NCBI GenBank assembly: GCA_903839085.1
Contig: CAIMBE010000038.1
Location: forward strand, 1-32,499
Length of the DNA: 32,499 bases
Direction of reading: 5' to 3'
Source: an uncultured beta proteobacterium
Lineage (GTDB): Bacteria; Pseudomonadota; Gammaproteobacteria; Burkholderiales; Burkholderiaceae_C
Part shown: one piece after another, positions 4,480-22,447 of the stretch
Position numbering within the stretch: the first letter of the stretch is position 1
Layout: the number at the start of each line of letters is the position of its first letter
The notes under the pieces: model-generated
Told to the model about the DNA's origin: nothing
Databases searched by the model: none
The model's input: the letters and a program-made list of their open reading frames with translations, nothing else
Position numbers and translations under genes: made by a program

Positions 4480-4632
4480 ATGAAACTTCTACCGACCGCG
4501 TCTAAGGCACTGATGCTCGCCACCCTTCCTGCCAATTGGGCGGGTCCGGTGCACGGGCAAAGCCTTGGCATCGACAGGTGCTGTGCTATGGATCAGGGCT
4601 TGTGCGCACAGTTCGGGTTTGAGTCGCCATGA
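4480..4632 (+). CDS. Small ORF, 50 aa, coupled to sulfatase gene
   Basis: ATG at 4480 is preceded by TGGAG at a good distance, and the stop TGA (4630-4632) overlaps the sulfatase start ATG (4629), so translation would be coupled. The 50-residue product begins MKLLPTASKALMLATLPA, which resembles a weak signal peptide, and the rest contains three cysteines (RCCAMDQGLC) and no recognisable domain. It could be a genuine small secreted peptide, a translational leader for the sulfatase, or the remnant of a longer exported protein whose body has been deleted. I do not recognise a family. Confidence 0.4.
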   Translation: MKLLPTASKALMLATLPANWAGPVHGQSLGIDRCCAMDQGLCAQFGFESP

Positions 4633-6197
4633 GCAAGAACAATATGAATCGGCGTGGCTTGCTGAAAAATGTCGCTTTGGGAGGGTGTGTTGCCGGCGGG
4701 CTCGCTGCCATCGGTACTGAGGCCTATTTCTTGATTAATCGCCGGCCGATGGAGGATCTCTACGGACCGTACCCGGATCGTGCCAGCTTGAGGCCGCCCA
4801 AGCTTGTCAATTCAGACGCCGAAAAGCCCAATGTCATCGTCATCTACTGTGACGATCTGGGCTATGGCGACCTGGGCTGCTACGGCAGCACCTCGATTCG
4901 CACCCCCAACATCGACCACCTGGCCAAAGCCGGCCTGCGCTTGAGTGACTACTACGCATGCAGCGGCGTCTGCTCGCCCTCACGCGCTGGCTTGCTCACG
5001 GGTCGCTACCCATTCCGCTCGGGCATGACGGGCAACCCCTACCCTGCGAATGAGGCCCTCTCGCAGCGCATGCTGCGCAACTGGGCCGGTCAACTCGCCG
5101 TTCTTGGCAGCACCGACCTGCACGAGGCTTATGCCACCGAAGGCCTGTCCGACAAGGAACTGACGGTTGCCGCCGCACTCAAGGTGGCGGGCTACCGCAC
5201 GGCCATGATCGGCAAGTGGCATCTGGGCGACTTCAGTCAGCAAAGCGAGTTTCATCCGCACAAGTTCGGCTTTGACCGCTACTTTGGCGTTCCCCACAGC
5301 AACGACATGCGCCCCTGCCCGCTCTATCGCAATACGCAGCAAATCGAAGCCGACATTTTGAACATCCTGCCCGAAGTCACGGGGCGCTACACCACCGAAG
5401 CCGTTAAGGTGATCGAGGAGGCCAAAGGCCAGCCTTTTTTCCTGTACCTGGCGCATACCTTTCCGCACCAGCCGCTGGCGGCATCAGTCAACTTTGCCGG
5501 CAAATCGCAGGCTGGCAAATACGGCGACGCGGTGGAGGAAATCGACTGGAGCGTGGGCCAGATCGTCGCCGCGCTGGACCGCGCTGGCGTCAGCGACAAC
5601 ACCTTGCTCATTTTCACCAGCGACAACGGCCCGTGGTTTGAAGGCAGTGCCGGCGTTCTGCGCGGCGGCAAGGGCCAGTCCATGGACGGCGGCTTCAAAG
5701 TGCCATTTATTGCCAAGTGGCCAAAGCGCATCAAGGCCGGCGCTGAGTCGTCCGAGTTGATGACCAATCTGGACATCTTCCCGACCCTGCTCGATCTGGC
5801 CGGTTTGGAGCAACCGTCTGACCGCGTGATCGACGGCGTTAACGTGGTCGGGCTATTGACTGGAACGGCACCCAAGTCCCCACGAGACGCGTTCTTCTAC
5901 TACCACTACGATGAACTGCAAGCGGTGCGCATGGGCACGTGGAAGTACATCCGCAGAACCAACCGCTATGTCTGGCCCATACCGCTGGATGCCGAGGCCA
6001 TTTCGCGCAAGTTCGGCACCAAGCAACTCGGCAGCGAGCGCGCGCCGTTGCTCTACGACTTGCGCCGCGACCCCGGTGAACGCTATAACCTCATCGCCAC
6101 GCATCCCGAGATCGCTGCCAGGCTGGAAAAGGCAATGGCAGCCTGGGAGGCGAAAAACCAGAAGAATCCGCGCGGGTTCGTGGCACTCGCCCTGTGA
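4629..6197 (+). CDS. Tat-exported sulfatase (arylsulfatase-type)
   Basis: The 522-residue product is a type I sulfatase. The signature CSPSRAGLLTGR (Cys115-Arg126) carries the cysteine that is converted to formylglycine in active enzymes. The N-terminal metal-binding pair is in YCDDLGYGD (Asp75-Asp76), further conserved parts are MIGKWHLG and FTSDNGPW. The N-terminus has a twin-arginine motif (NRRGLLK, Arg8-Arg9), so the enzyme should be exported folded. ALGGC at residues 16-20 could act as a lipobox, making it a possible Tat lipoprotein. The substrate (aryl, alkyl or sugar sulfate) cannot be told from sequence. Maturation needs a formylglycine-generating enzyme, which is not in this window. 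A strong hairpin follows the stop codon. Confidence 0.92.
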   Translation: MSKNNMNRRGLLKNVALGGCVAGGLAAIGTEAYFLINRRPMEDLYGPYPDRASLRPPKLVNSDAEKPNVIVIYCDDLGYGDLGCYGSTSIRTPNIDHLAKAGLRLSDYYACSGVCSPSRAGLLTGRYPFRSGMTGNPYPANEALSQRMLRNWAGQLAVLGSTDLHEAYATEGLSDKELTVAAALKVAGYRTAMIGKWHLGDFSQQSEFHPHKFGFDRYFGVPHSNDMRPCPLYRNTQQIEADILNILPEVTGRYTTEAVKVIEEAKGQPFFLYLAHTFPHQPLAASVNFAGKSQAGKYGDAVEEIDWSVGQIVAALDRAGVSDNTLLIFTSDNGPWFEGSAGVLRGGKGQSMDGGFKVPFIAKWPKRIKAGAESSELMTNLDIFPTLLDLAGLEQPSDRVIDGVNVVGLLTGTAPKSPRDAFFYYHYDELQAVRMGTWKYIRRTNRYVWPIPLDAEAISRKFGTKQLGSERAPLLYDLRRDPGERYNLIATHPEIAARLEKAMAAWEAKNQKNPRGFVALAL

Positions 6198-6335: not shown

Positions 6336-7955
6336 ATGCGCAGATGGAATGGATGGGGCGATGATGCCACTTCAATGGAACTGAGCGAAGGCGCGCGGAC
6401 CATGATGGCCGAGTTGCTGGGACCGGGCCGTCCCGGCCAGGATGCGCAGCGCGCCGGGATGCTGGCAAAAATTCCGCCATCCCGCCTGAGCGCCAAACAC
6501 GCCCTGATTCAAACCGACGCTGACACCCGTTTTGCCATGGCCTTGGGCGAAAGCTTTGCCGACTGGATCCGCAAACGCTTTGGAGCCATGCCGCCCGCAC
6601 CTGATGGCGTGGCATTTCCCGAGTCCACCGAACAGGTGCGTGAATTGCTCGCGCTGGCGCACAGCAACAACTGGATGGTCATTCCATTTGCAGGCGGCAC
6701 CAGTGTGTCGGGCCATCTGGATTGCCCTGTCAGCGAGCGGCCGATCCTGTCCATCAACCTCGGCCGCATGAACCGACTGCTGCACCTGGACAAACTAAGC
6801 CAGCTTGCCACCTTTGGCGCAGGCACACCGGGCCCGCAGGTCGAAGCGCAATTGCGCGCCCACGGCTACACGCTGGGGCATTTTCCACAGTCGTTTGAAT
6901 ACTCCACGGTGGGTGGCTGGGTGGTCACACGTTCCAGCGGCCAGCAGTCATTGCGCTACGGACGGATTGAACAACTGTTTGCCGGCGGTCACATGGAAAC
7001 CCCCGTCGGCACACTCACCATCCCCACGCTGCCCGCCGCCAGCGCCGGCCCCGACTTGCGCGAACTGGTGATGGGTTCCGAAGGACGTTTTGGCGTTCTG
7101 ACCGAGGTCACGGTGCGCGTCACCGCGCTGCCCGAGCACGAGAGTTTTCACGCCATTTTCCTGCCTGACTGGGACGCAGCCGAAGCCGCCGTGCGCACGC
7201 TGATCCAGCGCAGGCTGCCCTTGAGCATGATGAGGCTGAGCAATGCCATCGAGACCCAGACCAGCCTGACTCTGGCCGGCCACGCCACGCTCATCGGCTG
7301 GCTGGAACGCTATCTGGCCCTGCGTGGCTGCGGCGAGGGAAAATGTCTGCTGATGCTGGGTGTCACGGGCGAGCGGCGCAGCGCGCGCCACGCCCTGAAA
7401 GAAGCCCGGCGCACCCTGTCTTCGCATGGTGCGGTGTACATCGGGACGGCCATGGGGGCCAAGTGGGCGGGCAACCGTTTCAAGGGCCCTTACCTGCGCA
7501 ATACGCTGTGGGATCAGGGCTACTGTGCCGACACGATCGAGACGGCGGTGGACTGGCCCAATGTCAAGAAGCTGATGCTGGCCATGGAGCAGGCCGCGCG
7601 CGATGTCTTTGCGCCCTACGGCGAGCGCGTGCACGCATTCACCCACCTGTCGCACCTGTACCCGCAGGGCAGTAGCGTCTATTCGCAGTTTGTCTGGGCC
7701 ACCGCAGCCGGCGGCTTTGCGCCGAACTTCGAACGCTGGCAGAAGCTCAAGGCCGGCGTGGCCGCCACCATTGCGGCGCACGGCGGCACGGTCAGCCACC
7801 AGCATGGTGTGGGGCGCGACCACGCCGCCCATTTGAAGGACGAAAAGGGTCCGCTTGGCATGGCCACACTGGCGCAGTTGTGCCGCCACTTTGATCCAAA
7901 GAAGATCATGAATCCAGGCAAGCTGCTGCAGGACGAAGGACCATGGGCCACTTGA
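6336..7955 (+). CDS. Alkyl-DHAP (alkylglycerone-phosphate) synthase-like FAD enzyme
   Basis: The start at 6336 follows CGGAGG by 5 bases. The 539-residue product has a PCMH-type FAD-binding domain at about residues 85-270, with PFAGGTSVSG (117-126) and the long conserved block GHFPQSFEYSTVGG (181-194). A C-terminal FAD-linked oxidase domain ends in SHQHGVGRDH (His488, His490) and DPKKIMNPGKLL. This whole pattern is characteristic of alkylglycerone-phosphate synthases, which exchange the acyl chain of acyl-DHAP for a fatty alcohol to form the ether bond of ether lipids, rather than of generic D-lactate or glycolate oxidases. The stop overlaps the start of the next gene by 13 bases, and the two genes after that encode a GlpD-like and an FGGY enzyme. 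Direction (ether synthesis or cleavage) is not determined by sequence. Confidence 0.82.
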   Translation: MRRWNGWGDDATSMELSEGARTMMAELLGPGRPGQDAQRAGMLAKIPPSRLSAKHALIQTDADTRFAMALGESFADWIRKRFGAMPPAPDGVAFPESTEQVRELLALAHSNNWMVIPFAGGTSVSGHLDCPVSERPILSINLGRMNRLLHLDKLSQLATFGAGTPGPQVEAQLRAHGYTLGHFPQSFEYSTVGGWVVTRSSGQQSLRYGRIEQLFAGGHMETPVGTLTIPTLPAASAGPDLRELVMGSEGRFGVLTEVTVRVTALPEHESFHAIFLPDWDAAEAAVRTLIQRRLPLSMMRLSNAIETQTSLTLAGHATLIGWLERYLALRGCGEGKCLLMLGVTGERRSARHALKEARRTLSSHGAVYIGTAMGAKWAGNRFKGPYLRNTLWDQGYCADTIETAVDWPNVKKLMLAMEQAARDVFAPYGERVHAFTHLSHLYPQGSSVYSQFVWATAAGGFAPNFERWQKLKAGVAATIAAHGGTVSHQHGVGRDHAAHLKDEKGPLGMATLAQLCRHFDPKKIMNPGKLLQDEGPWAT

Positions 7956-9541
7956 ACGCGGGCACCGCGCGCGCCGACGAACTGGCGCGCATGCAGGCGC
8001 GTGAGTGGGACCTGATCGTCATCGGCGGCGGTATCACCGGCGCGGGTGTTGCCCAGCAGGCGGCACGGCGCGGCTGGAGCGTGCTCTTGATCGAGCAGCG
8101 CGACTTTGCATGGGGTACTTCGAGCCGCTCCTCCAAGCTGGTGCATGGCGGCTTGCGTTACCTGAAGGAAGGCGACATCAAGACCACGCTGCACTCGGTG
8201 CGCGAGCGCGAGCGCCTCATGCGCGAAGCGCCGGAACTGGTTGAGGTGCAAAGCTTCTTGTTCGCCGATTGCGCCGCTCGCAAGCCAGGTCGCTGGCTAT
8301 TCCAGTTGGGTCTGATGGTTTATGAACTGATGGCGGGCAAGCGTAGCCACTTCTATGCGAAGCTGAACGCGGCTCAGACTCTGGCGCCGGGGCTTGCGCC
8401 CGATCTGATGCGTGGTGCGATGGTCTATGCCGACGCAAAGACCGACGATGCAAGGCTGGTATGGCGAGTGCTGATGGAAGCCAGGCGCGATGGCGCCTTG
8501 CTGCTGAACTATGTTCATGCACAAAGCCTTCAGCACAGCAGCACGGGGGCATCCAACCTGACCGTGCGCGATGCCGTCTCGGGCCAGAGCTACCCGGTGC
8601 GCGCCAAAGCCATCGTCAACGCCACCGGTGCCTGGGCCGACCGCCTGCGTTCTGGGGTGGGCGGCAAGCCGATGCTTCGGCCTTTGAGAGGCAGCCATCT
8701 GGTGGTGCCGTTCTGGCGCCTGCCGGTTGCCCAAAGCATCAGTCTGATGCATCCCAGAGACGGCCGACCGGTGTTTCTCTATCCGTGGGAAGGCGCCACG
8801 CTGATCGGCACCACCGATCTGGATCACAAGGGCGACCTCGATATCGAGGCCAGCATCACACTGGCTGAAGTGGACTACCTCATTGAAGCGGTCAACGACC
8901 AGTTCCCTGCTGCCGCCCTCACGCCAGCCGACATCAGCGCCTGCTATGCCGGCGTGCGCCCGGTGGTGGCACAGGCCGAAGGTGACGCGTCCAAGGCCGC
9001 ACGCGACCATGCTGTGCTGGACGAATCCGGACTGATCACCGTGGCAGGGGGCAAGCTCACAACCTTCCGGCTGATGGCGCAGGACGCCTTGGCGCTGGCG
9101 GCAACCCACGCCGGCAAGCCGTTTGCGCGGGATGACGCGGCCCTGTTCACCCCCACAAGCGCGCTGAACCCGCACTGGAACGCACGGGTTCGGCACCGCC
9201 TGGCCGCGCGCTATGGCTACCTCGCGCAAACACGTGCGGGCGAGCCAGTTGATGCGGATTTGCAGACCGTTGCGGGCACCGACACCCTGTGGCTGGAGTT
9301 GTCGATTGCAGCCCGATATGAGGCTGTGCAGCATCTGGACGACCTGCTGCTGCGCCGCACCCGGCTCGGGATTCTGCTGCCACGTGGCGGCCTGGATCAT
9401 CTGGCGCGGATTCGTGTGCTCTGCGAGCCCCATCTTCAATGGGGTGATCAGGGCTGGGTCACGGAGATCGCTCGCTACCAGACGCTGATTGCCGCACACT
9501 ACCAATTGCCAAGCGCAAGACCCGAGGAACCCACACCATGA
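7943..9541 (+). CDS. glpD: Glycerol-3-phosphate dehydrogenase, FAD-dependent (GlpD family)
   Basis: The 532-residue product is a GlpD-type flavoprotein. It has an N-terminal dinucleotide-binding motif VIGGGITGAGVA (26-37), the family signature GTSSRSSKLVHGGLRYL (58-74), and the substrate-pocket segments LIGTTDLDHKGD and VAGGKLTTFRLMA. The family oxidises sn-glycerol 3-phosphate to dihydroxyacetone phosphate at the inner membrane and passes electrons to quinone. The gene overlaps the alkyl-DHAP-synthase-like gene by 13 bases and shares ATGA with the FGGY kinase gene, so these three are translationally coupled. Because the partners are ether-lipid-like rather than the usual glpF/glpK, the substrate may be a glycerol-phosphate derivative such as 1-alkyl-glycerol 3-phosphate; that is inference. 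Confidence 0.88.
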   Translation: MGHLNAGTARADELARMQAREWDLIVIGGGITGAGVAQQAARRGWSVLLIEQRDFAWGTSSRSSKLVHGGLRYLKEGDIKTTLHSVRERERLMREAPELVEVQSFLFADCAARKPGRWLFQLGLMVYELMAGKRSHFYAKLNAAQTLAPGLAPDLMRGAMVYADAKTDDARLVWRVLMEARRDGALLLNYVHAQSLQHSSTGASNLTVRDAVSGQSYPVRAKAIVNATGAWADRLRSGVGGKPMLRPLRGSHLVVPFWRLPVAQSISLMHPRDGRPVFLYPWEGATLIGTTDLDHKGDLDIEASITLAEVDYLIEAVNDQFPAAALTPADISACYAGVRPVVAQAEGDASKAARDHAVLDESGLITVAGGKLTTFRLMAQDALALAATHAGKPFARDDAALFTPTSALNPHWNARVRHRLAARYGYLAQTRAGEPVDADLQTVAGTDTLWLELSIAARYEAVQHLDDLLLRRTRLGILLPRGGLDHLARIRVLCEPHLQWGDQGWVTEIARYQTLIAAHYQLPSARPEEPTP

Positions 9542-11097
9542 GCAAGAGCTATCTGCTGGCCATAGACAACGGCACCCAGAGCGTGCGCGCCCTGTTGTTT
9601 GATCTGCACGGAAACCTGGTCGACAAGTCCCAGGTGACGATTGACAGCTACCAGTCGGCGCAGCCCGGCTGGCTGGAAAACGACCCGGAGGCCTTTTGGC
9701 AATCCTTGTGCCAGGCCTGCCAGCATCTTTGGGCCAACACCAGCGTGCCCAAGAGCGCTGTCGCGGGTGTGGTCATTACCACCCAGCGCGCCACCACCAT
9801 TGCACTGGACAAGGAGGGCAAGCCCCTGCGACCCGCCATGATCTGGCTCGATCAGCGCCGTGCCGACGTCACGCCCAAGCTCAAATGGTGGTGGGAAGCG
9901 GCGTTTCGCGCGATTGGCATGCGTGATACGGTGCGCTTTTTCCAAAAGGAAGCTGAGGCCAACTGGATCGCACAGCACCAGCCGGACGTCTGGGCGAAAA
10001 CCGACAAGTACCTGTTGCTCTCGGGCTACCTCAACTACCGCTTTACCGGCAAATTCGTGGACTCGGTGGCATCCCAGGTCGGCTACATACCGTTCGATTA
10101 CAGGAAGGGCTGCTGGGCTGCCAAGTCCGACTGGAAATGGCAGGCTCTGCCGATCCGTCCGTCCATGCTGCCCGAATTGGTGAGCGCGGGCACCATCATC
10201 GGCACGGTCAACGCCCAAGCCGCACTGGATACCGGGATTCCGGAAGGCCTGCCCGTGATTGCCGGCGCTGCCGACAAGGCCTGCGAGGTGATCGGAGCCG
10301 GTTGCCTCACACCCGAAATTGCCTGCCTGTCTTACGGCACGACGGCCACGATCAACACCACCACACCCCGCTATCTGGAAGCCACGCCCTTCATTCCACC
10401 GTATCAGGCGGCGGTGCCAAAGCACTACAACACCGAAATCCAGATCACCCGGGGATTCTGGATGGTGAGCTGGTTCAAGGAGCAGTTTGGCCTGCATGAA
10501 CAACTGATGGCGCAGCAGCGCGGCGTCGCACCGGAAGCCCTGTTTGATGAGTTGGTCAACGCCGTGCCGCCGGGGTCGCAGGGGTTGATGCTGCAACCCT
10601 TCTGGAACCCAGGCATCAAGGTCCCGGGGCCCGAGGCCAAGGGCGCCATCATCGGTTTTGGCGATGTGCACACGCGCGCCCATCTGTACCGCGCCATTCT
10701 CGAAGGCCTGGCTTACGCCCTGCGCGAGGCCAAGGAGCGCATCGAAAAACGCGGTGGCACACGCATCACCAAAGTGCGCATCTCCGGCGGCGGCTCGCAG
10801 AGCGACGCGGCCATGCAGATCACGGCCAACATTTTCAACTTGCCTTGTGAGCGTCCGCACCTGTACGAGACCAGCGGCCTGGGTGCGGCCGTGCTGGCCG
10901 CCGTGAGTCTGAAAATGCACCCGGACTTTGCGACCGCCATCGCCCGGATGACGCGCATCGGCCAGGTGTTCCAGCCCGAACCCGTGCACGCCCAGACCTA
11001 TGAGCAACTCTACCGCCGGGTCTACTGTCGCATGTACAAGCGTCTGCAGCCGCTGTATTTGGACATTCAGTCGATCACGGGGTATCCTGCCCGTTGA
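9538..11097 (+). CDS. FGGY-family carbohydrate/polyol kinase
   Basis: A 519-residue protein with the two-domain FGGY fold. The N-terminal phosphate-binding strand is AIDNGTQSVRALLFD (8-22), followed by ITTQRATTIALD and MIWLDQRRAD. The C-terminal domain contains VIAGAADKACEVIGAG and the adenosine-binding RISGGGSQSDAAMQ. Length is normal for the family. FGGY kinases phosphorylate glycerol, xylulose, ribulose, gluconate and related polyols. The GTQS start differs from the GTTS of classical glycerol kinase, so I do not assign glpK. Its 4-base ATGA overlap with glpD, together with the ether-lipid-synthase-like gene, suggests that the substrate is glycerol or a glycerol ether. Confidence 0.85.
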   Translation: MSKSYLLAIDNGTQSVRALLFDLHGNLVDKSQVTIDSYQSAQPGWLENDPEAFWQSLCQACQHLWANTSVPKSAVAGVVITTQRATTIALDKEGKPLRPAMIWLDQRRADVTPKLKWWWEAAFRAIGMRDTVRFFQKEAEANWIAQHQPDVWAKTDKYLLLSGYLNYRFTGKFVDSVASQVGYIPFDYRKGCWAAKSDWKWQALPIRPSMLPELVSAGTIIGTVNAQAALDTGIPEGLPVIAGAADKACEVIGAGCLTPEIACLSYGTTATINTTTPRYLEATPFIPPYQAAVPKHYNTEIQITRGFWMVSWFKEQFGLHEQLMAQQRGVAPEALFDELVNAVPPGSQGLMLQPFWNPGIKVPGPEAKGAIIGFGDVHTRAHLYRAILEGLAYALREAKERIEKRGGTRITKVRISGGGSQSDAAMQITANIFNLPCERPHLYETSGLGAAVLAAVSLKMHPDFATAIARMTRIGQVFQPEPVHAQTYEQLYRRVYCRMYKRLQPLYLDIQSITGYPAR

Positions 11098-11142
11098 GGC
11101 GGCTGGTTGCTGCTATGCCCGATTCATCATGAAAGTAACAAA

Positions 11143-11706
11143 ATGACCCGAGTACCCCACTTGTCACGGCGCAGCCTTCTCAAAGTGGGCTTCGGGTTTA
11201 CCGCTGCCGCCGCGTGCACCGCAATCCTCCCGGGCCTGGCCGGGTGCAGCAGCAGCGACAAAATCGCGGTGGCAGGATTCAGGTTCCTGAACGCGGGGGA
11301 TGTTGCACTCTTCAGCGCCTTGATTCCGGTGGTGGTCAGCGATGTCGCGGTTCTCGATGCGGCGCAAAGAACTCAGCGCATCCATACGGTTCTCGGCAAC
11401 ATAGACGCTGCCTGCTCCGACCTGGTCGTGCACCAGCAGGGCGAGTTGCGAAAACTGATGGATCTGCTGGCAATCGGACTGCTGCGCCGCCTGTTGACGG
11501 GTGTCGGAAACTGGAGCGACGCAAGCCGGCAGGACATCGAGGCCTTCCTTGTGCGCTGGCGCTCCAGCCGATTCGCAACGCTCACCGCGGGTGTCAATGC
11601 ACTGATGAAACTCACCTCGGTAGGCTACTACGTGTTGCCCGACGCGTGGCCGGCGGTCGGCTATCCGGGGCCGCTCAAATACGTTTACGACGCCGCCAAT
11701 TCCTGA
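11143..11706 (+). CDS. Tat-signal lipoprotein, likely small subunit of the GMC dehydrogenase
   Basis: The start at 11143 is favoured because it places a textbook twin-arginine signal at the N-terminus: LSRRSLLKVGFGF, a hydrophobic stretch, then lipobox LAGC with Cys35. The mature part of about 150 residues is helical (FRFLNAGDVALFSALIPVVV; RKLMDLLAIGLLRRLL; TAGVNALMKLTSVGYYVLPDAW). This resembles the small subunits (gluconate 2-dehydrogenase subunit 3 type) that accompany GMC dehydrogenases. The gene lies 45 bases after the FGGY kinase gene and 38 before the GMC oxidoreductase gene. By analogy with gluconate and fructose dehydrogenases, it could carry the signal-less large subunit through the Tat pore. 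I am fairly sure of the export signal and less sure of the family. Confidence 0.7.
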   Translation: MTRVPHLSRRSLLKVGFGFTAAAACTAILPGLAGCSSSDKIAVAGFRFLNAGDVALFSALIPVVVSDVAVLDAAQRTQRIHTVLGNIDAACSDLVVHQQGELRKLMDLLAIGLLRRLLTGVGNWSDASRQDIEAFLVRWRSSRFATLTAGVNALMKLTSVGYYVLPDAWPAVGYPGPLKYVYDAANS

Positions 11707-11744
11707 GTCCTGGCTGTCCACCACATCATTCGAGAGAGAAATCC

Positions 11745-13349
11745 ATGGCCTTTCCCAACATCTACACCACCGGCATCGCCTCGGGCTGGAAGGTCATCGA
11801 CGCCTCCAGTTTGAAGGCGCCCTTGACCCTGGATGCGGAGGTCGCCATCGTGGGCACCGGTGCCGGCGGCGGTGTGGCTGCCGAAATTCTGAGCCGGGCC
11901 GGATTGAGCGTGGTCATGATCGAGGAAGGACCGCTCAAGACATCGGACAGCTTCAAGGACATGGACGAGGCGCGCGCCTACCGGGACCTTTACCAGGAGG
12001 GCGCCGGACGCGCCACCTCCGACGGCGCAATTTCCATCCTGCAAGGGCGCTGCGTGGGCGGCAGCACCACGGTCAACTGGACCTCGAGTTTTCGCACACC
12101 GGGCCAGACGCTGGCCCACTGGGCCTCTCAGCATGAAGTGGCAGGGCACAGCGAAAAGGAGATGGCCCCCTGGTTTGCCAAGATGGAGGAGCGGCTCGGC
12201 ATTGCACCCTGGGCCATGGCGCCGAATGAGAACAACAGCATCCTTCAGCGTGGATGCAAGGCGCTCGGATGGGAGTCGCATGTCATCCCGCGCAACGTCA
12301 AGGGCTGCCTGGATGCCGGCTATTGCGGCCATGGCTGCCCCGCCAATGCAAAGCAGTCGATGCTGGTGACGACGATCCCGAGCGCCCTCGAACATGGCGC
12401 GACCCTGCTGCACCGCTTGCGCGTGCGGCAGGTTCAGCATGCTGCAAACAAGGTCGAAGGACTTGTCTGCGACGCGCTCGGACCGGACGGGCGCACCCCG
12501 ACCGGCGCCACGGTCAGCGTCAAGGCTCGCCACTATGTCATCGCCGGCGGCGCGATCAATTCCCCGGCGCTGTTGCTGCGTTCCCAGGTGCCCGATCCCT
12601 ACAAACTGCTCGGGAAACGCACCTTTATTCACCCGGTCAATCTTTCGGTGGCGACGATGCCCAAGCGCGTGGATGCGTTTTACGGCACACCGCAGTCGGT
12701 TGCTTCGGACCAGTTTCAGTGGAAGGATGGAGTGACCGGACCGATTGGCTACAAGCTTGAGGTGCCGCCGCTGGCGGTAGGCATTACCGCCGGCATATCG
12801 AATCTTTTCGGTCTGGAACTGAAGAAGAGCATGGCGCAACTTCCAAATTACAACGCCGTCCTGGCCCTGCTGCGCGACGGTTTTGTGCCCCAGAGCGAAG
12901 GGGGTCAGGTGCGCCTCGGCAGTGATGGCAGCCCGATACTGGACTACGAGGTCAGCCCCTATGTCTGGGACGGGATTCGCCGCGCTTTTCTCAGCATGGC
13001 GGAGCTTCAGTTTGCAGCGGGCGCCGCCAGTGTTCGCCCGGCCCACCTCGACAGCGCCAACTACACGACCTGGAACGAGGCGAGGGCAGCGATTTTGGCC
13101 CTGCCGCTCGAGAAATTCCGGGCCACCCTGTTCACAGCCCACCTGATGGGTGGCTGTGGCATGAGCGAAAACCCGCGCTCAGGGGTTGTGAACAGCCAGG
13201 GACGTCACCACCAGTTGGCCAACCTCTCGGTCATGGACGCTTCGACGTTCCCGACCAGCCTGGGTGTCAACCCGCAACTGACGATCTATGGGCTGGTGGC
13301 ACAGAACGTCTCGGCGCTGGCGGGCGAACTCGGTGCCAAGTTGCAATAG
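11745..13349 (+). CDS. GMC-family FAD oxidoreductase (fatty-alcohol-oxidase-like)
   Basis: The 534-residue product has an N-terminal FAD motif AIVGTGAGGGVAAEIL (34-49), the second GMC motif GRCVGGSTTVNW (101-112), and the C-terminal GMC domain with TAHLMGGCGM and GVNPQLTIYGLVAQ, which carry the catalytic His and Asn region. A cysteine cluster C-x5-C-x3-C-P (Cys188, Cys194, Cys198) lies in the middle. Similar clusters occur in long-chain fatty-alcohol oxidases and in the iron-sulfur-containing FAD glucose dehydrogenases. There is no signal peptide, whereas the preceding gene encodes a Tat lipoprotein that could escort it. In this operon the likely substrate is an alcohol, possibly the fatty alcohol exchanged by the alkyl-DHAP-synthase-like enzyme. 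The start at 11745 has GAGAGA upstream and fits the family length. Confidence 0.87.
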   Translation: MAFPNIYTTGIASGWKVIDASSLKAPLTLDAEVAIVGTGAGGGVAAEILSRAGLSVVMIEEGPLKTSDSFKDMDEARAYRDLYQEGAGRATSDGAISILQGRCVGGSTTVNWTSSFRTPGQTLAHWASQHEVAGHSEKEMAPWFAKMEERLGIAPWAMAPNENNSILQRGCKALGWESHVIPRNVKGCLDAGYCGHGCPANAKQSMLVTTIPSALEHGATLLHRLRVRQVQHAANKVEGLVCDALGPDGRTPTGATVSVKARHYVIAGGAINSPALLLRSQVPDPYKLLGKRTFIHPVNLSVATMPKRVDAFYGTPQSVASDQFQWKDGVTGPIGYKLEVPPLAVGITAGISNLFGLELKKSMAQLPNYNAVLALLRDGFVPQSEGGQVRLGSDGSPILDYEVSPYVWDGIRRAFLSMAELQFAAGAASVRPAHLDSANYTTWNEARAAILALPLEKFRATLFTAHLMGGCGMSENPRSGVVNSQGRHHQLANLSVMDASTFPTSLGVNPQLTIYGLVAQNVSALAGELGAKLQ

Positions 13350-14118: not shown

Positions 14119-15228
14119 TCAACCGCCGATGTGCCTAAGGATGAGGCGATTGACATCGCTGGCGCGCTCCATTTGCGCCATGTGGCCCGTGTTTTCAAAC
14201 ACCTCGACGGTGGCCCCTTGCGGTGCGTTGGCGGCGTGCGTCGCCGGAATAATCCGGTCCTCGCGCCCCCACAGCACCAGCAAGGGCGGCGTGCTGCCGA
14301 GCTCGCGCACGGGCTGCTCGCTCTGCTGGCCAGCGCCAAACAGGGAATGGCCCAGTTCAGTCAGCAGTTCGGTCACCCCGTCGAGTCGCTTGTACTTGAG
14401 CACGTCGTCCACCAGTTGGCGGTTGACCAGGCTGGGGTCAGCGAACAGCATCTCCAGCAAGGGCTTTAGCTCACGGCGCGAGGGTGCACGCGCGAAGCCG
14501 TCGGTGTAGTCAGCGTTGATTTCGCCGCCCATGCCAGCGCTGCCAATGAGGGTGAGCGAGGCCACGCGCCGCGCATCGACCAGCGCCATCTGGGCGGCAA
14601 TGGCGGCCCCCATGGAGTGCCCCACCAGATGCGCGCGTTCGACCTGGACGGCATCGAGAAAATTGGCCACAAAACCGGCCAGCGCCCCAAGACTGGCGCC
14701 GGGCAAACGGATTCCCGACTGCCCGTGCCCGGGCAGATCCAGAGCCAGCACCGGCGCTTTCTCGCCCACGGCATCGATGTTGAACAGCCAGTTGTCGAGG
14801 TCGCCCCCGAAGCCGTGGATGAAGAGCACCGGCGTGCCCTCGGCAGCACCCCTGCGCGCGTAGCGCGTGCGGATGCCCTGGACCTCGATAAACTGGTACG
14901 CGGGGGCCGCATCGTCCTCTTGCGCATCGGACGCTGGCGTGACGTAAGCCGCCACATAGGCGTCAATGTCGGCATCGCTCACGTCGTCCCCCGCCATCAC
15001 ACCCAACAGCGCCTTGACCGGCAGCAACTCGCCCACGGTGGCTAGCTTGCGCCGCAACCGGCCGGGGTCGGGTGCCTCGACCGCGCTGGCGATCTTGTCG
15101 GTTTCGACCTCAAGGATCGGCATGCCGACGCGGATGGTCGTACCCTCATCGACCAGCCAGGCGGTGACGGTGCCTTCCTTCATCGACAAGCCCCACTTGG
15201 GCATGACGATGGGCGTGATGCCAGTCAT
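14119..15228 (-). CDS. acoC: Acetoin dehydrogenase E2-like protein AcoC (lipoyl domain fused to alpha/beta hydrolase)
   Basis: The 369-residue product has an N-terminal lipoyl domain (about 4-80) with the modified lysine in VETDKIASAV (Lys45). A linker of roughly 40 residues and an alpha/beta-hydrolase domain (about 112-369) follow. The hydrolase has oxyanion segment HGFGGDLDNW (138-147), nucleophile elbow GHSMG (Ser205), acid in WGREDRIIP and His in ENTGHMAQME. There is no chloramphenicol-acetyltransferase-like E2 core. This is the architecture of AcoC from Cupriavidus and Pseudomonas acetoin dehydrogenase, where the acetyl group formed by E1 is carried on the lipoyl arm. The ATG overlaps the acoB stop by one base (TGATG). 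No dihydrolipoamide dehydrogenase gene follows. Confidence 0.92.
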   Translation of the reverse strand: MTGITPIVMPKWGLSMKEGTVTAWLVDEGTTIRVGMPILEVETDKIASAVEAPDPGRLRRKLATVGELLPVKALLGVMAGDDVSDADIDAYVAAYVTPASDAQEDDAAPAYQFIEVQGIRTRYARRGAAEGTPVLFIHGFGGDLDNWLFNIDAVGEKAPVLALDLPGHGQSGIRLPGASLGALAGFVANFLDAVQVERAHLVGHSMGAAIAAQMALVDARRVASLTLIGSAGMGGEINADYTDGFARAPSRRELKPLLEMLFADPSLVNRQLVDDVLKYKRLDGVTELLTELGHSLFGAGQQSEQPVRELGSTPPLLVLWGREDRIIPATHAANAPQGATVEVFENTGHMAQMERASDVNRLILRHIGG

Positions 15229-16244
15229 CAGTGCCTCCCCCCCTTGAGTGTGCGGCGCACCGCATCAGCGATTTGCCCGGCGCTGGGGATGTACATGTCT
15301 TCGAGGGTCGGCGAGAACGGAACCGGCGTATGCGGGGGCGCCACCATCTCGATCTGCGCCTTGAGCGCGCCAAAGGCGTGCATGGCAACCTGGGCCGAGA
15401 TATCGGTGGCAATGTTGCAGCGTGGGCTGGCCTCGTCCACACACACCAGGCGGCCGGTCTTGGTCACGCTCTCGAGCACGGTGTCCATGTCCAGCGGCGA
15501 AAGCGTGCGCAGGTCGACGATTTCGACCTCCACCCCTTCTTTTGCCAGCGCCGCTGCAGCTTCCAGCGAGCGGTGCACCATCAGGCCGTAAGTCACGATG
15601 CTGCAGTGCCTGCCCTCGCGAACCACGTTGGCTTCGCCCAGCGGAATGGCGTAGGATGCCTCGGGCACATCGCCCTCGAGCGCGTAGAGATTCTTGTGCT
15701 CGCAAAAGATCACGGGGTCGTTGTCGCGGATCGACTGAAGCAGCAGACCCTTGGTGTCGTAGGGCGTGCTTGGGCACACCACCTTCAGGCCCGGGATGTG
15801 CGTGAACAGCGGCGTGAGCATCTGGCTGTGCTGGGCCGCGGCGCGAAAGCCCGCCCCCACCATGGCGCGGATCACGACCGGGGTCTCGGCCTTGCCGCCG
15901 AACATGTACTTGAACTTGGCGGCCTGGTTGAAAATCTGGTCAAAGCACACGCCCATGAAGTCAATGAACATCAGTTCGGCCACCGGACGCATGCCGCAAG
16001 CGGCCGCGCCGACGGCCGCGCCGATGTAGGCGCTCTCGGACAGGGGGGTGTCGAGCAGGCGGTCGCCGTGCTTGGCGTACAAACCCTTGGTCACACCCAG
16101 AACGCCGCCCCAGGCGTCCTTCTCGCCGTGGGCGCCGGCGCCCCCGACGATGTCTTCACCCATGCAGATCACGCTCGGGTCTGCCGCCATTGCCTGGTCC
16201 AGTGCCTCATTGACGGCTTGTTTCATGCTGATATTTCGGGCCAT
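15228..16244 (-). CDS. acoB: Acetoin dehydrogenase E1 component, beta subunit
   Basis: A 338-residue transketolase-like E1 beta subunit: MKQAVNEALDQAMAADPSV, GEDIVGGAGAHGEKDAWGG, LDTPLSESAYIGAAVGAA and the C-terminal half VEIVDLRTLSPLDMDTVLES with KTGRLVCVDEA. It pairs with AcoA to form the alpha2beta2 thiamine-diphosphate enzyme that cleaves acetoin to acetaldehyde and a lipoyl-bound acetyl group. It lies 35 bases downstream of acoA and overlaps acoC by one base. The sequence differs clearly from the second E1 beta gene at 22448, so the two are old paralogues rather than a recent duplication. Confidence 0.93.
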   Translation of the reverse strand: MARNISMKQAVNEALDQAMAADPSVICMGEDIVGGAGAHGEKDAWGGVLGVTKGLYAKHGDRLLDTPLSESAYIGAAVGAAACGMRPVAELMFIDFMGVCFDQIFNQAAKFKYMFGGKAETPVVIRAMVGAGFRAAAQHSQMLTPLFTHIPGLKVVCPSTPYDTKGLLLQSIRDNDPVIFCEHKNLYALEGDVPEASYAIPLGEANVVREGRHCSIVTYGLMVHRSLEAAAALAKEGVEVEIVDLRTLSPLDMDTVLESVTKTGRLVCVDEASPRCNIATDISAQVAMHAFGALKAQIEMVAPPHTPVPFSPTLEDMYIPSAGQIADAVRRTLKGGRH

Positions 16245-16279
16245 GTTGGTCTCCTTCTAGATATGCTGTGCTGTTCGGG

Positions 16280-17266
16280 TTAGTAGCTGACGTACACGTC
16301 AGTGGTGAGGTCGGCCAGCGTGGGCAGGGGCGCCGCCTTGGCCTGCTCCACGGCGCTTTCGATCAGCGCCATGACTTCGGCGTCAATCGCGGCGAGTTCA
16401 CCCGCGCTGATGACGCCGGCGGCGGTCACCTGTGCGGCAAGCTTTTTCATGCAGTCGGAGTTGGCGCGGATGTCGTCAAGCTCACCCGGGGCGCGGTAGG
16501 TTTGCGCGTCGCCTTCAAAGTGGCCATGAAAGCGCACCATCTTGCATTCCAGCAGTGACGGGCCGCCGCCTTCGCGCGCACGGCGGATGATCTCGCCCGC
16601 CGCCTCGTACACCGCAAACAGATCGGTGCCGTCCACGGTGATGCCCGGCATGCCAAAGCCGGCGGCGCGATCGACGAAGCTATCGACCGCCGTGGCGTAG
16701 TCGCGCGAGGTGGATTCTGCGTAGCCGTTGTTCTCGACCACAAAGATCACCGGCAGATTCCACACCCCGGCCAGGTTCAGGCTTTCCAGGAACGTGCCCT
16801 GGTTGGATGCCCCGTCGCCGACGAAGCTGATTGCCACTTCGCCCTGTCTGCGGTACTTGGCCGCCAGGGCCGCGCCGCAGGCCAGCGGGGCGCCAGCGCC
16901 CAGAATGCCGTTGGCGCCCATCATGCCCTTGCTTAGATCGGCGATGTGCATGGAGCCACCCTTGCCCTGGCAGGAGCCGCCCTTCTTGCCGTAGATTTCC
17001 TTCATCATGCCAAACACATCGACCCCTTTGGCGATGCAGTGGCCGTGACCCCGGTGCGTACTGGCAATGCGGTCGCCGTCGCCCAGGTGCGCCATGATGC
17101 CGGTGGCGGCGGCTTCCTCACCGGCGTACAGGTGGACGAAGCCTGGAATATCGCCGCGACTGAAATCGACGTGCAAGCGCTCTTCAAATTCTCGAATCGT
17201 TCGCATCGTTCGGTACGCTTTGAGCAAGTCCTCGCGGGACAACGGGAAGGGATGGGTGCCTGCCAT
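16280..17266 (-). CDS. acoA: Acetoin dehydrogenase E1 component, alpha subunit
   Basis: A 328-residue E1 alpha subunit with the thiamine-diphosphate motif GDGASNQGTF through VVENN, the conserved STHRGHGHCIAKG and GGSMHIADLSKGMMGANGI segments, and FHGHFEGDAQTYR near the C-terminus. These are typical of AcoA. With AcoB it forms the cytoplasmic E1 of acetoin dehydrogenase. TGGAG lies about 9 bases before the ATG, and the gene follows acoX by 17 bases in the same operon. A second E1 alpha paralogue with a different N-terminal insertion is encoded at 21425. Confidence 0.93.
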   Translation of the reverse strand: MAGTHPFPLSREDLLKAYRTMRTIREFEERLHVDFSRGDIPGFVHLYAGEEAAATGIMAHLGDGDRIASTHRGHGHCIAKGVDVFGMMKEIYGKKGGSCQGKGGSMHIADLSKGMMGANGILGAGAPLACGAALAAKYRRQGEVAISFVGDGASNQGTFLESLNLAGVWNLPVIFVVENNGYAESTSRDYATAVDSFVDRAAGFGMPGITVDGTDLFAVYEAAGEIIRRAREGGGPSLLECKMVRFHGHFEGDAQTYRAPGELDDIRANSDCMKKLAAQVTAAGVISAGELAAIDAEVMALIESAVEQAKAAPLPTLADLTTDVYVSY

Positions 17267-17283
17267 GGTGAATGTCTCCAGTT

Positions 17284-18360
17284 TTAGGGGTTGGGGGAAG
17301 AATGGCGGAACAGGCCTTCGCGTGCAGCGGTCTGCAAGCAGCGGGCCACGTCCACCGTGGGGAAAGCGTCTTCGCGCAGGGTGACGCTGACCTGCTGGCC
17401 AACGTCAAAAGTGAACTCGCGCTCGCCGTCGAGCGCCACCACGCCGGCGCCCAGCGTCACCGCAAATGGCACGCCTGCGGGCATGATCGACCAGTCGGCA
17501 ATCGCAATGTCGCTGATCATTCCCGGCGCAATCGGCACGCTCAGGTGCAAGCGCGCCGAAGCGGCGTCAGGCGACAGGCGAATCACCAGGCCGCCGCGCT
17601 CATTGCGCCCCACCGGCTGCAGCAGGCCGCCGATGGCCGACAGGCCGATCACCTGCGGATCGGCAAACGTCAGGTAGACAGCGCTCAAGCTGTCAGTCTT
17701 CCACAGGGCGCGTGCGCCGATGAAACGGTCCGAACCAATGACAGCATCGACGATGGCGATGTCTCTCACCACGCCATCGACGCCGACCTCAAGCACCTTG
17801 TTGGGCAGCAGCGCCTGTTCGGCGCCGAGCCGTCCACTGGCATACAGGCCCACGGCCAACGCGGCAATGGTGGGTTCACGCATTTCAGGAAAGGCGTTGT
17901 TGGTCCCGGTGGACAAGCCTGCTATCGCCACCGCGGGCAAACCCTGGCGCGTACCGGCGATGAGTTCACGCGCCACGGCGCGATGGGTCCCATCACCCCC
18001 GAGCACCACGATGACCTTGACCCCGGCTTGCTGCATGGCCCGCGTCGCAGCAAAGGTGTCGTCGACGCTGGAAGTCACCGCCATATCAACGAATTCCACC
18101 TTCGGGAAACGATGGTGCAGGTTGCGCTCGCGCTGCAGGTTGCGCAGCAGCATGGCACTGATGCCAGCTTTGTCGGGCATCATCAAGACGTGCTCAATGC
18201 CGCCAGCGGCCAGAGTGGTCAGCACGCGCAAAACGATGTTGACACGCTCCGAGGTCTGCAGGTTGCTGGCGTTGGCGATGATGCGCCGGATGTCGCGCGC
18301 AGACACCGGATTGGCGATGATGCCAACGCTGGCAGTAGAACTCAACGGGGTCTCAGTCAT
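17284..18360 (-). CDS. acoX: AcoX, NAD-kinase-like protein of the acetoin locus
   Basis: The 358-residue product belongs to the AcoX group of the ATP-NAD/diacylglycerol kinase-like superfamily. It has VGIIANPVSARDIRR at the N-terminus, the nucleotide loop VVLGGDGTHRAVA, and GLSTGTNNAFP. AcoX is regularly the first gene of acetoin operons but its reaction is unknown. The start at 18360 was chosen because a perfect sigma-54 promoter lies at 18392-18407 and would start transcription near 18380; the more upstream in-frame ATG at 18387 would then lie outside the transcript. AGGA precedes the ATG. A paralogue is encoded at 24445-25509. Confidence 0.9.
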   Translation of the reverse strand: MTETPLSSTASVGIIANPVSARDIRRIIANASNLQTSERVNIVLRVLTTLAAGGIEHVLMMPDKAGISAMLLRNLQRERNLHHRFPKVEFVDMAVTSSVDDTFAATRAMQQAGVKVIVVLGGDGTHRAVARELIAGTRQGLPAVAIAGLSTGTNNAFPEMREPTIAALAVGLYASGRLGAEQALLPNKVLEVGVDGVVRDIAIVDAVIGSDRFIGARALWKTDSLSAVYLTFADPQVIGLSAIGGLLQPVGRNERGGLVIRLSPDAASARLHLSVPIAPGMISDIAIADWSIMPAGVPFAVTLGAGVVALDGEREFTFDVGQQVSVTLREDAFPTVDVARCLQTAAREGLFRHSSPNP

Positions 18361-18391
18361 GCGCGGATTTCCTAATTCCTCAGACATCACC

Positions 18392-18407
18392 AGCAAGGCC
18401 CGTGCCA
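18392..18407 (-). promoter_or_regulatory. Sigma-54 (-24/-12) promoter of acoXABC
   Basis: Read on the minus strand this is TGGCACG-GGCC-TTGCT, a full match to the TGGCACR-N4-TTGCW consensus with correct GG/GC spacing. It lies 32 bases upstream of the acoX start codon. A second TGGCACG copy lies 10 bases further upstream (18411-18417), but has no properly spaced -12 element. Confidence 0.9.
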
Positions 18408-18510
18408 TGTCGTGCCAAGCGCCAGGACGCGCCTTTGGCGGCACTCCAGCACCGAGATGAGCCTGATCAGCCTCGGTTATTGCTTGTGCTGATGCAGTTT
18501 CGTCTCACCC

Positions 18511-18551
18511 CTGCGACATCTGTCGCAGCAAAGACAGCAACACGTGTCGCA
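18511..18551. promoter_or_regulatory. Enhancer-like inverted repeats upstream of acoX
   Basis: A perfect palindrome, CTGCGACA-TC-TGTCGCAG (18511-18528), is followed by an imperfect copy AGCAACA-CG-TGTCGCA (18536-18551). Both have 7-base arms around a 2-base centre. They sit about 110-145 bases upstream of the -24 element, the usual distance for upstream activator sites of sigma-54 activators. The AcoR-like protein encoded at 25660 is the likely binder; this is inference. Confidence 0.7.
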
Positions 18552-18603
18552 CACGGGGCTCAGTTCAGGCGGGTGCCGTTCTCGTGACGTCGCCGGCCCG
18601 GTA

Positions 18604-19137
18604 CTACGGCACGATCCGCAGCGGCGCGGCGGGCCATGCGCCGGTAAGCAGTGGTTTGAGCAGCGCCGCGAGCTGGCGCGGAATGAAGGTCTCGCTGGAG
18701 GCAGCGATCTCGTCGGCGCTCCACCAGCGCAGCTCGCGGAAAATGTCGCGCTCCTCCTGGGTGAGCGCCGTCGGCACCGGCTCGAAGGCGGGCACGCGCT
18801 GGATATAGACTCGCGCCAGCGTGTCGACCGGTTGGCCATCGCGCACGATGCGCTTGGGCGAAGTCCAGACCCAGTGGCCTGGATGCCCGAGGCGCAAGCC
18901 GGTCTCCTCGAAGATCTCGCGCAGCAGCGCGTCCTCGAACGACTCACCCGGATGAAGGGAGCCGCCCGGCGTCAGCCAGAACGCCTGCGGCAAAGCCGGC
19001 GGTCCCGGCACCAGGCGCCCCAACGCCAGCTTGATCAGCAGAACGCGATCCTGCGGGTCGACCAGCAACGCGCGGGCAGATTCAATAACAGGCTTTTCGA
19101 TCACTTCAAGCCCAGTGTCAGCCTTTTGATCGGCCAT
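18604..19137 (-). CDS. NUDIX hydrolase
   Basis: The 177-residue product has a complete Nudix box, GGSLHPGESFEDALLREIFEE (58-78) followed by TGL, matching GX5EX7REUXEEXGU, inside a standard Nudix fold (ARALLVDPQDRVLLIKLALG before, ERDIFRELRWWSADEI after). Such enzymes hydrolyse nucleoside-diphosphate-linked compounds with Mg2+; the substrate is not predictable. The ATG at 19137 has no clear ribosome site, so a GTG about 11 codons inside is an alternative start. It is 72 bases downstream of the acetamidase gene on the same strand and may be the last gene of that transcript. Confidence 0.88.
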   Translation of the reverse strand: MADQKADTGLEVIEKPVIESARALLVDPQDRVLLIKLALGRLVPGPPALPQAFWLTPGGSLHPGESFEDALLREIFEETGLRLGHPGHWVWTSPKRIVRDGQPVDTLARVYIQRVPAFEPVPTALTQEERDIFRELRWWSADEIAASSETFIPRQLAALLKPLLTGAWPAAPLRIVP

Positions 19138-19209
19138 CTAGCAGCGGGAAAACCCTCGCTTCGCCGCGAACAGGTGATGTCGGGCGGTGTGGCTTTGGCA
19201 CCGGCCGGA

Positions 19210-20175
19210 CTATTCCGTCACGATACGGGGAAAATAGAGCGAGACCACCCAGTTTGGGACATCCACGATGGAACTGATGCGCAGATCGGCACAGACGCTG
19301 CAAAGCATGTAGGCGTCAATCGGCGAATAACCAAAGCGCCGACTCAACAGATCAATCATTTCCGAGACGGCGGCGCGTGCGCCCGTCATCAAGTCCGGAC
19401 CGATGCCGGTGGTGACCTCGTATCCCCTGGTATCAAAGTGATTGGTCACCGGCCCCGGTGTGGTGAAGCGAGGCGAACGCAAGTAGGCGCCTTTGATCAG
19501 TTCGAACTTCAACGCGACGTCAATCGGACTCTCGATGGCGGTGCCGCAGACTTCGCCGTCGCCCTGAACCGCGTGGGTGTCGCCGACCGAGAAGATCGCC
19601 CCATCCACCTCGACTGGCAAATACAATTCCACGCCCTCGCCGATGTCGCGAATGTCCATGTTCCCGCCCACGTTGCGCGGCGGGATGATGCTGTGCAGAC
19701 CCGGCTCCGCAGGCGCCACACCAATCGTGCCGCACATCGGCCGCAACGGGACACGTCCGCCCGGTCCATACATGACGGAGACCGCGCCAAGCGGGTCGTA
19801 GTTCCAGTGGTGCAAATGCGCGTCTGGAAATTGATCGGTCAGCAAACCAAAACCGGGGATATTGCCCGTCCAACCCCAGCCGGAAGGCTTGAACGAGAGA
19901 ATCGTGACCTTCAGTGCATCGCCGGGCTGGGCGCCATCGATGTAGACCGGCCCGGTCACCGGGTTGACCCGGGCCAGGTCAAGCCTGGCCAGATCGTTTG
20001 CGTCGGAGGTGCGGTTCAGCTGTCCAGACGAGGCGTCGAGCGTCTCAAACCGAATCGATTCGCCCGGCGCAATCTTGAGGCAGGGAGCAAACGAGTTATC
20101 CCAACCGTGGTGGATGTGCGCGCGGTGGATGGTGTGCTGGTGGCCATGGCTTCCAGCGTGGCTATGGGCGCTCAT
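19210..20175 (-). CDS. Acetamidase/formamidase (FmdA/AmdA family)
   Basis: The 321-residue product begins with a His-rich segment leading into HIHHGWDNSFAPCLKIAPGE, the usual start of acetamidase/formamidase proteins. It continues with PVYIDGAQPGDALKVTIL, PMCGTIGVAP, NVGGNMDIRDI and IFSVGDTHAVQGDGEVCGTA, all conserved in the family. These metal-dependent cytoplasmic enzymes hydrolyse formamide, acetamide or related short amides to ammonia and the acid. The ATG at 20175 is preceded by GGAG about 8 bases upstream. The gene is 11 bases downstream of the SDR gene, so the two form an operon driven by the sigma-54-like promoter at 21030-21045. The link to the E1 clusters is through shared regulation only. 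Confidence 0.9.
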   Translation of the reverse strand: MSAHSHAGSHGHQHTIHRAHIHHGWDNSFAPCLKIAPGESIRFETLDASSGQLNRTSDANDLARLDLARVNPVTGPVYIDGAQPGDALKVTILSFKPSGWGWTGNIPGFGLLTDQFPDAHLHHWNYDPLGAVSVMYGPGGRVPLRPMCGTIGVAPAEPGLHSIIPPRNVGGNMDIRDIGEGVELYLPVEVDGAIFSVGDTHAVQGDGEVCGTAIESPIDVALKFELIKGAYLRSPRFTTPGPVTNHFDTRGYEVTTGIGPDLMTGARAAVSEMIDLLSRRFGYSPIDAYMLCSVCADLRISSIVDVPNWVVSLYFPRIVTE

Positions 20176-20186
20176 GATCAAAGCTC

Positions 20187-20942: not shown

Positions 20943-21029
20943 GCGTCAGTGCTCCTGTAGTTTTGAGAAAAGCCAACAACGCCTTCATCCGTTCCCGGAT
21001 CACTGGCTTCAAAGCATGGACGTTTGACA

Positions 21030-21045
21030 AGCACCAGCCGTGCCA
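21030..21045 (-). promoter_or_regulatory. Sigma-54-like promoter of SDR-acetamidase operon
   Basis: The minus strand reads TGGCACG-GCTG-GTGCT. The -24 half is perfect, the spacing is exact, and the -12 half has one mismatch (GTGCT for TTGCT). It lies 88 bases upstream of the SDR start codon. Confidence 0.6.
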
Positions 21046-21156
21046 ACAAGACGTGAAACGAAGAAGATGTTTGTTCTTCCCGTCCACCGGTTTAAACGGG
21101 CAGCAACAAACACAGGTCAACGCCAACTTTGCAGCAACGCGATGCCACATCTTTGC

Positions 21157-22432: not shown

Positions 22433-22447
22433 CCACAGGAGAACAAT

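Follow-up and report, generated by a model that had tools for sequence, protein, structure and literature searches.

A conserved AGPS-like, GlpD-like and FGGY kinase gene triad as a candidate route for alkylglycerol ether breakdown in bacteria

In a 32,499-nucleotide stretch of DNA from an uncultured betaproteobacterium (contig CAIMBE010000038.1; hereafter the window, meaning the whole stretch analysed), we investigated a plus-strand run of five genes at positions 6336–13349. They encode a protein resembling alkyl-dihydroxyacetone-phosphate synthase (AGPS, also called ADPS), a GlpD-like flavin adenine dinucleotide (FAD) dehydrogenase, an FGGY kinase, a small lipoprotein with a twin-arginine translocation (Tat) signal and a GMC oxidoreductase. 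The source genome has a size of 3.78 Mb and is 98.6% complete. The first three genes form a triad that is kept in most relatives, and with moderate confidence we read the operon as a catabolic route for 1-O-alkylglycerols. An earlier note on this DNA had proposed alkylglycerol metabolism and left its direction open; the protein families and the idea itself fit our results, and the comparative evidence now favours breakdown. More tentatively, we suggest that the AGPS-like proteins of the triad, which form a distinct clade, may be flavin-dependent ether hydrolases acting on alkyl-dihydroxyacetone phosphate (alkyl-DHAP), working in the reverse direction of the ether-forming enzyme and permitting oxygen-independent use of ether lipids.

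Analysis of the open reading frames reproduced all five plus-strand genes of the earlier note; neighbouring frames overlap by 13 and 4 bases at the first two junctions and are 45 and 38 bases apart at the other two. Gene neighbourhoods were compared by tblastn on 80 named loci, 64 of which offer at least 5 kb of sequence downstream of the AGPS-like gene; L030, L031 and L044 are records of congeners (G033, G029 and G034) and not independent of the matches from the genome search. In 63 of these 64 loci the start of a GlpD-like gene is no more than 1.5 kb from the end of AGPS, and in 57 an FGGY kinase gene lies within 6 kb of AGPS, establishing the AGPS-like/GlpD-like/FGGY triad as a conserved unit. 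The other 16 loci show GlpD in 14 cases and the kinase in nine before the contig ends. An even sample of the class yielded nine further genomes with the AGPS-like gene: all eight that were examined have GlpD and FGGY genes nearby, and the ninth match sits at a contig end. Since the order is repeated in congeners and the triad is kept in most relatives with enough sequence, the gene order is far from chance.

The AGPS-like protein combines the domains FAD_binding_4 and FAD-oxidase_C with AGPS as its top fold match, in line with membership in the AGPS/ADPS family. Its best PDB matches were 2uuu from Dictyostelium discoideum (E = 1.4e-71) and 4bby from guinea pig (E = 4e-55), and the first 37 fold matches of its AlphaFold model (pLDDT 84) were all AGPS/ADPS chains (E = 2e-43 to 8e-38), followed by D-lactate dehydrogenases (E = 3e-26). 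Residues R352, R447 and Y508 of the D. discoideum enzyme have been named as important (PMC3509576); according to our alignment, positions in the 2uuu chain lie 3 behind that numbering. Missing AGPS active-site residues would have refuted the earlier note, and these residues are present: the corresponding R300, R388 and Y449 are kept in 81 of 81 proteins (the window plus the 80 named loci), and the window protein also retains the equivalents of guinea-pig H300 and H617. The likeness to the eukaryotic enzymes thus extends to the fold, the catalytic tyrosine and two arginines, and both histidines.

The triad proteins differ from the eukaryotic enzymes at three other positions. Guinea-pig T370 is replaced by arginine (R251 in the window; 81/81), D516 by asparagine (N389; 78/81, with histidine in three) and H616 by glutamine (Q489; 77/81, giving HQH, with histidine in four). 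The HHH loop, T370 and D516 were our own choice of synthase features, taken from conservation, and the triad proteins do not carry this ether-forming set; conservation likewise suggests a role for R251, N389 and Q489. Among six paralogous AGPS-like proteins from this and related genomes (30–34% identical), five carry T and one I at the first of these positions, five D and one E at the second, and every one H at the third. A tree of 46 rows placed the triad AGPS proteins in one clade (36 rows; support 97/99), distinct from the paralogues and both eukaryotic enzymes, whose own position is weakly supported on account of long branches. Rows are labelled Pseudomonadota, Chloroflexota, Acidobacteriota, Thermodesulfobacteriota, Vulcanimicrobiota and Bacillota; several rows are metagenome bins and could be mislabelled. 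The nearest named relatives of the window protein come from betaproteobacterial and Rhodoferax bins, which suggests a source organism close to Rhodoferax. Contig C292 of genome G000 (L113 4973–7624) encodes a second AGPS-like protein with T/D/H at these positions (32% identical). It belongs to a separate paralogue clade within the genus, and no GlpD or kinase homologue was found on its 16 kb contig.

Glycerol kinase GlpK carries a signature of R83, E84, Y135, D245 and F270 that has been described as extremely well conserved (PMC3245297); the E. coli gene numbering with methionine runs one higher than these published numbers (E85, Y136). In all 64 triad kinases the arginine and the aspartate are kept, E84 is replaced by G, A or S, Y135 by F or L, and F270 falls opposite a gap; Q246 is replaced by K in 63 of the 64. 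Judged by the published signature, the triad kinase is not a glycerol kinase. Under the assignment that we assume for the hydroxyl bound by each signature residue, loss of the residues binding the free hydroxyl would be expected, because that hydroxyl would carry the alkyl group. The window kinase reached 178 bits against the NCBIfam glycerol kinase model TIGR01311 (cut-off 590), and its nearest solved structures are glycerol kinases. Elsewhere the genome encodes a separate GlpK fragment of 158 residues, located at the end of a contig, which retains R, E and Y and has a GlpD next to it; a GlpA lies at another site.

The GlpD-like protein matched the PDB entry 3da1 with E = 3.7e-71. Residues K47, H50, R54, Y55, R317 and R332 of E. 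coli GlpD are kept in 78 of 78 GlpD-like proteins and K354 in 77 of 78; we take H50, R54, Y55, R317, R332 and K354 to be substrate-site residues. Against the NCBIfam model NF008899, the window protein scored 297 bits (cut-off 360), a cut-off that does not separate the two GlpDs of this genome, as the other one (contig C84) likewise scored 297 bits.

In the published AGPS mechanism, the C1 proton beside the ketone of DHAP is abstracted, a flavin N5 adduct forms, the acid is lost and the alcohol attacks (PMC3509576). By microscopic reversibility, the second half could run backwards on alkyl-DHAP and, with water instead of a fatty acid, would give DHAP. Turning an alkylglycerol into alkyl-DHAP would take one kinase and one dehydrogenase acting on C2, and it is genes for these two that accompany AGPS. 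We infer a route that would start from 1-O-alkylglycerols, the ether cores that remain once head group and acyl chain have been removed from ether phospholipids or glycolipids. The kinase would convert these into 1-O-alkyl-sn-glycerol 3-phosphate, and the GlpD-like dehydrogenase would oxidize C2 to a ketone, yielding alkyl-DHAP. As the C2 ketone would make the C1 proton acidic, the AGPS-like enzyme could abstract it through Tyr449, trap C1 on flavin N5 and expel the fatty alcohol, whereupon water would enter the flavin adduct and release DHAP to glycolysis. Ether cleavage would thus be the second AGPS half-reaction in reverse, in which water would serve as acceptor and oxygen would not be required. 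The fatty alcohol would be oxidized by the membrane-anchored GMC/Tat pair and channelled via acyl-CoA into beta-oxidation; a periplasmic GMC enzyme would draw the alcohol from the membrane.

The triad is partly known from Pseudomonas aeruginosa, where PA3026-PA3024 has been read as a synthesis operon, its deletion being described, in the sections consulted, as without phenotype (PMC8151288). The GliR regulon of that work comprises the triad together with a phospholipase and a lipid kinase. By the names given there, PA3026-PA3024 consists of the same three families in the same order as the window, where AGPS, GlpD and FGGY follow each other on one strand, and a Rhodoferax ferrireducens counterpart is listed. 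Compared by gene names and order, the window operon differs by its extra Tat and GMC genes and its upstream sulfatase, and no divergent AraC-type regulator lies next to it; the proposed direction differs as well, synthesis there and breakdown here. P. peli (L056) has a triad 58, 50 and 63% identical to ours, accompanied by a divergent gene of the AraC-type cluster. The AGPS operon MXAN_1676-1674 of Myxococcus xanthus also contains a bacterial AGPS-family gene; it serves ether-lipid synthesis, and its partners include FAR and GNPAT domains (PMC9131029) instead of GlpD and the kinase. Breakdown of alkylglycerol ethers is the outcome known for AGMO, a tetrahydrobiopterin-dependent monooxygenase (PMC8147360) that a 2021 review, in the part consulted, calls the only known enzyme to break this bond (PMC7911779); the route proposed here would proceed without oxygen or tetrahydrobiopterin. 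Among the open-access literature matches listed, none gave the triad a breakdown role, and PMC8151288 was the only paper found on it.

A minus-strand gene of an AraC-type cluster occurs in 35 of the 80 loci, and in 33 of them its end is no more than 600 bases from the AGPS frame, similar to GliR in Pseudomonas. In seven of the 80, AGPS is immediately preceded by a gene of a FadR_C/GntR cluster; for both clusters the family was assigned from one scanned representative. FadR_C is an acyl-CoA-sensing domain. In total, 45 recurring neighbour clusters were listed, namely the three of the triad, three for GMC, Tat and sulfatase, and 39 others, for 30 of which one representative was scanned. Most of these 30 belonged to housekeeping families or to families tied to a lineage (GGDEF, MCP, aminotransferase, protease, transporter), and the links to lipids among them are the FadR_C gene and perhaps a cytochrome P450. 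Seven Duganella/Rugamonas/Massilia loci (L060, L061, L063, L067, L068, L069 and L070) have the P450 gene ahead of the triad, where it ends about 1.7–2.2 kb before AGPS, again with one representative scanned; its product may make the alkyl chain ready or have nothing to do with the triad.

The GMC/Tat pair is an accessory to the triad. Both genes are collinear with it in congeners (L116, L117, L118), whereas two unclassified bins (L089, L093) have them divergent and immediately next to AGPS. In another congener (G001, L121; AGPS 53% identical), an enoyl-CoA hydratase gene lies 12 bases from AGPS, and a dienoyl-CoA-reductase-like gene followed by Tat, GMC and an acyl-CoA synthetase is arranged divergently to the triad. 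The link between the pair and the triad is thus seen in three arrangements. The GMC and AGPS genes also co-occurred across genomes, with p values that ignore shared ancestry and with class and phylum samples that share genomes (e.g. G065). In the class sample (369 genomes without our own; AGPS at E up to 1e-120, GMC at E up to 1e-90), AGPS was found in nine genomes, GMC in five and both in four, on different contigs (p = 8e-7). The phylum sample (396 genomes; AGPS at E up to 1e-110) gave 17, 33 and 12 (p = 6e-11), or 8, 14 and 5 when counted by genus (n = 231; p = 2e-5). Among 59 relatives, our own excluded, the numbers were 7, 12 and 6 (p = 1e-4), weaker AGPS-like matches being the paralogue and left uncounted.

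A Tat homologue directly precedes GMC in nine of 12 GMC loci (L157–L168), two of the nine being pieces of a window-type operon, and an aldehyde dehydrogenase lies near the GMC homologue in three of the six loci with a scanned neighbour (L160, L164, L166), which fits an alcohol oxidase. The best NCBIfam match of GMC was a cholesterol oxidase model, whose cut-off it missed by a wide margin. GMC is probably exported together with its Tat partner. For the small Tat protein, the predicted structure had low confidence (pLDDT 46), a PDB profile search returned nothing (best E = 0.5), and neither an NCBIfam family nor a Pfam match at 0.001 was found, only weak chance rows. A C-terminal GYPGP resemblance noticed by eye had suggested subunit 3 of gluconate 2-dehydrogenase; this candidate was set aside, as PF13618 had no match in the five members compared or in the genome itself. 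Congener G029 encodes a DUF1302 protein directly downstream of GMC (L117 16131–18245), and no such frame follows GMC in the window.

Several observations weigh against the proposed breakdown. We know of no AGPS that hydrolyses alkyl-DHAP, an alkoxide leaves less readily than a carboxylate, and no biochemistry of any triad member was found in the open-access literature searched. The HHH loop persists in four of the 81 triad AGPS proteins and in L148. The top NCBIfam model of the window kinase was xylulokinase (270 bits), ahead of GlpK and, like it, below cut-off, so that a sugar-like kinase substrate is conceivable. In seven of the 64 loci the kinase was not near AGPS (four with Chloroflexota-group labels and one each labelled Deltaproteobacteria, Gemmatimonadetes and Proteobacteria). 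Neither a lipase or beta-oxidation enzyme nor a GNPAT-type acyltransferase or acyl-CoA reductase appeared among the 30 scanned neighbour representatives, which speaks against a synthesis cluster and gives no help to breakdown; fatty-acid genes together with the triad were seen in one genome only (L121). Tat/GMC stand beside the triad in at least four of the 80 named loci, two being close relatives of the window, a lower bound because many loci end early. Outside family f168, only three of eight AGPS genomes of the phylum sample have GMC, and the genomes that have GMC lack the triad AGPS in 21 of 33 cases in the phylum sample and in six of 12 among the relatives. The Tat partner further implies a periplasmic GMC, which is awkward beside a cytosolic triad. 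In view of this accessory distribution and probable export, GMC, which the earlier note placed last in the chain, is not a simple next cytosolic step.

The same families could instead build ether lipids: kinase and GlpD would supply DHAP, an acyltransferase would acylate it, and the AGPS-like enzyme would swap the acyl group for a fatty alcohol. This direction, proposed for PA3026-PA3024 (PMC8151288), agrees with the intact AGPS fold and catalytic residues; overall we consider it rather improbable. The genome has other GlpK, GlpD and GlpA genes, and the glycerol signature is missing from the triad kinase. Glycolysis already yields DHAP, so kinase and GlpD look superfluous for synthesis. Neither the acyltransferase nor a fatty acyl-CoA reductase turned up in the 30 of 39 neighbour clusters that were scanned, though genes elsewhere in the genome could supply them. 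GMC with an aldehyde dehydrogenase would consume the alcohol. PF07993, through which the reductase was sought in the genome itself, gave four matches (frames of 349–380 aa, best 62.5 bits) that neither show nor exclude it. We rejected ordinary glycerol use on account of the kinase signature and because the genome has other glp genes. A spare route for glycerol or glycerol 3-phosphate with an unrelated AGPS-like oxidase attached would agree with the conserved GlpD site and with glycerol kinases as the nearest solved structures. It appears very improbable: three of the five GlpK signature residues are lost in 64 of 64 kinases, the genome has its other glp genes, the adjacency of AGPS and GlpD would be left unexplained, and a PA3026-PA3024 deletion grew normally on glycerol, as stated in the part of PMC8151288 consulted.

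The chemistry proposed here might also act on a non-fatty glyceryl ether, splitting an R-O-glycerol in which R is an aryl, terpenoid or sugar-like group. The loss of glycerol contacts in the kinase does not name R, and the xylulokinase and cholesterol oxidase models as best, sub-threshold NCBIfam matches, the three residues that differ from fatty-alcohol AGPS and the lack of a lipase recurring beside the triad among the scanned clusters would all be compatible with such a substrate. We nevertheless regard it as unlikely, given that lipids are indicated by the FadR_C regulator, by the L121 genes for an acyl-CoA synthetase and an enoyl-CoA hydratase, and by the GliR regulon with its phospholipase and lipid kinase (PMC8151288).

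The features of the operon and its upstream neighbour are compiled below. The family assignments of the earlier note held for four of the five proteins, which passed the Pfam cut-offs (FAD_binding_4 and FAD-oxidase_C; DAO and DAO_C; FGGY_N and FGGY_C; GMC_N and GMC_C), and not for the small Tat protein. No NCBIfam cut-off was reached by any of the five among the matches listed (for the GlpD-like protein, the best 25 of 31).

Table 1 Features of the proposed alkylglycerol operon and its upstream neighbour.
Feature	Position	Strand	Evidence
AGPS-like FAD enzyme; proposed alkyl-DHAP ether-cleaving enzyme	6336..7955	+	PDB match 2uuu, fold, catalytic residues, own clade
GlpD-like FAD dehydrogenase; proposed oxidation of alkyl-glycerol-3-phosphate to alkyl-DHAP	7943..9541	+	Pfam DAO and DAO_C; 3da1; E. 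coli GlpD site kept
FGGY kinase without glycerol-kinase signature; proposed alkylglycerol kinase	9538..11097	+	Pfam FGGY_N and FGGY_C; signature residues
Small Tat-signal lipoprotein, GMC partner, no named family	11143..11706	+	Twin Arg and LAGC lipobox in translation; homologues beside GMC homologues
GMC oxidoreductase; proposed membrane/periplasmic fatty-alcohol oxidation	11745..13349	+	GMC_N E 2.1e-50, GMC_C E 1.4e-22; co-occurrence
Tat-exported sulfatase, CSPSR motif; upstream accessory in this lineage	4629..6197	+	Pfam; homologues upstream of AGPS gene in L116, L117, L118, L119

The ATG of the AGPS-like gene is preceded by GGAGG, and an alternative, longer GTG frame begins at 6303. A scan for promoters and terminators gave no signal, with one promoter-like site (1.1 in shuffles) and three terminator-like sites (6.8 in shuffles). 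The sulfatase, absent from the earlier note, is of type I and directly upstream of the operon; its homologues in the four congener contigs are 74–93% identical, with two tandem copies in L117. That it might strip sulfate from a sulfated ether glycolipid is pure guesswork. Further downstream, positions 14119–29622 hold two sets of pyruvate/acetoin-dehydrogenase-type E1 genes, an E2 above the acetoin-dehydrogenase cut-off, a lipoate ligase-like gene, a sigma-54 regulator and two esterase-family genes, and look like an acetoin/2,3-butanediol region. On the minus strand, a match to the MamQ model at 2000–2650 (95 bits) falls far below the cut-off of 250; we presume a LemA-type protein.

If correct, the breakdown reading would name a function, based on covalent flavin chemistry, for a conserved operon that has none. 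It would fit the silent PA3026-PA3024 deletion, for which the sections of PMC8151288 consulted mention no alkylglycerol test, and it predicts a simple growth phenotype together with three separable enzyme activities. The triad would then provide enzymes for cleaving ether bonds without oxygen, and ether lipids would be food for bacteria.

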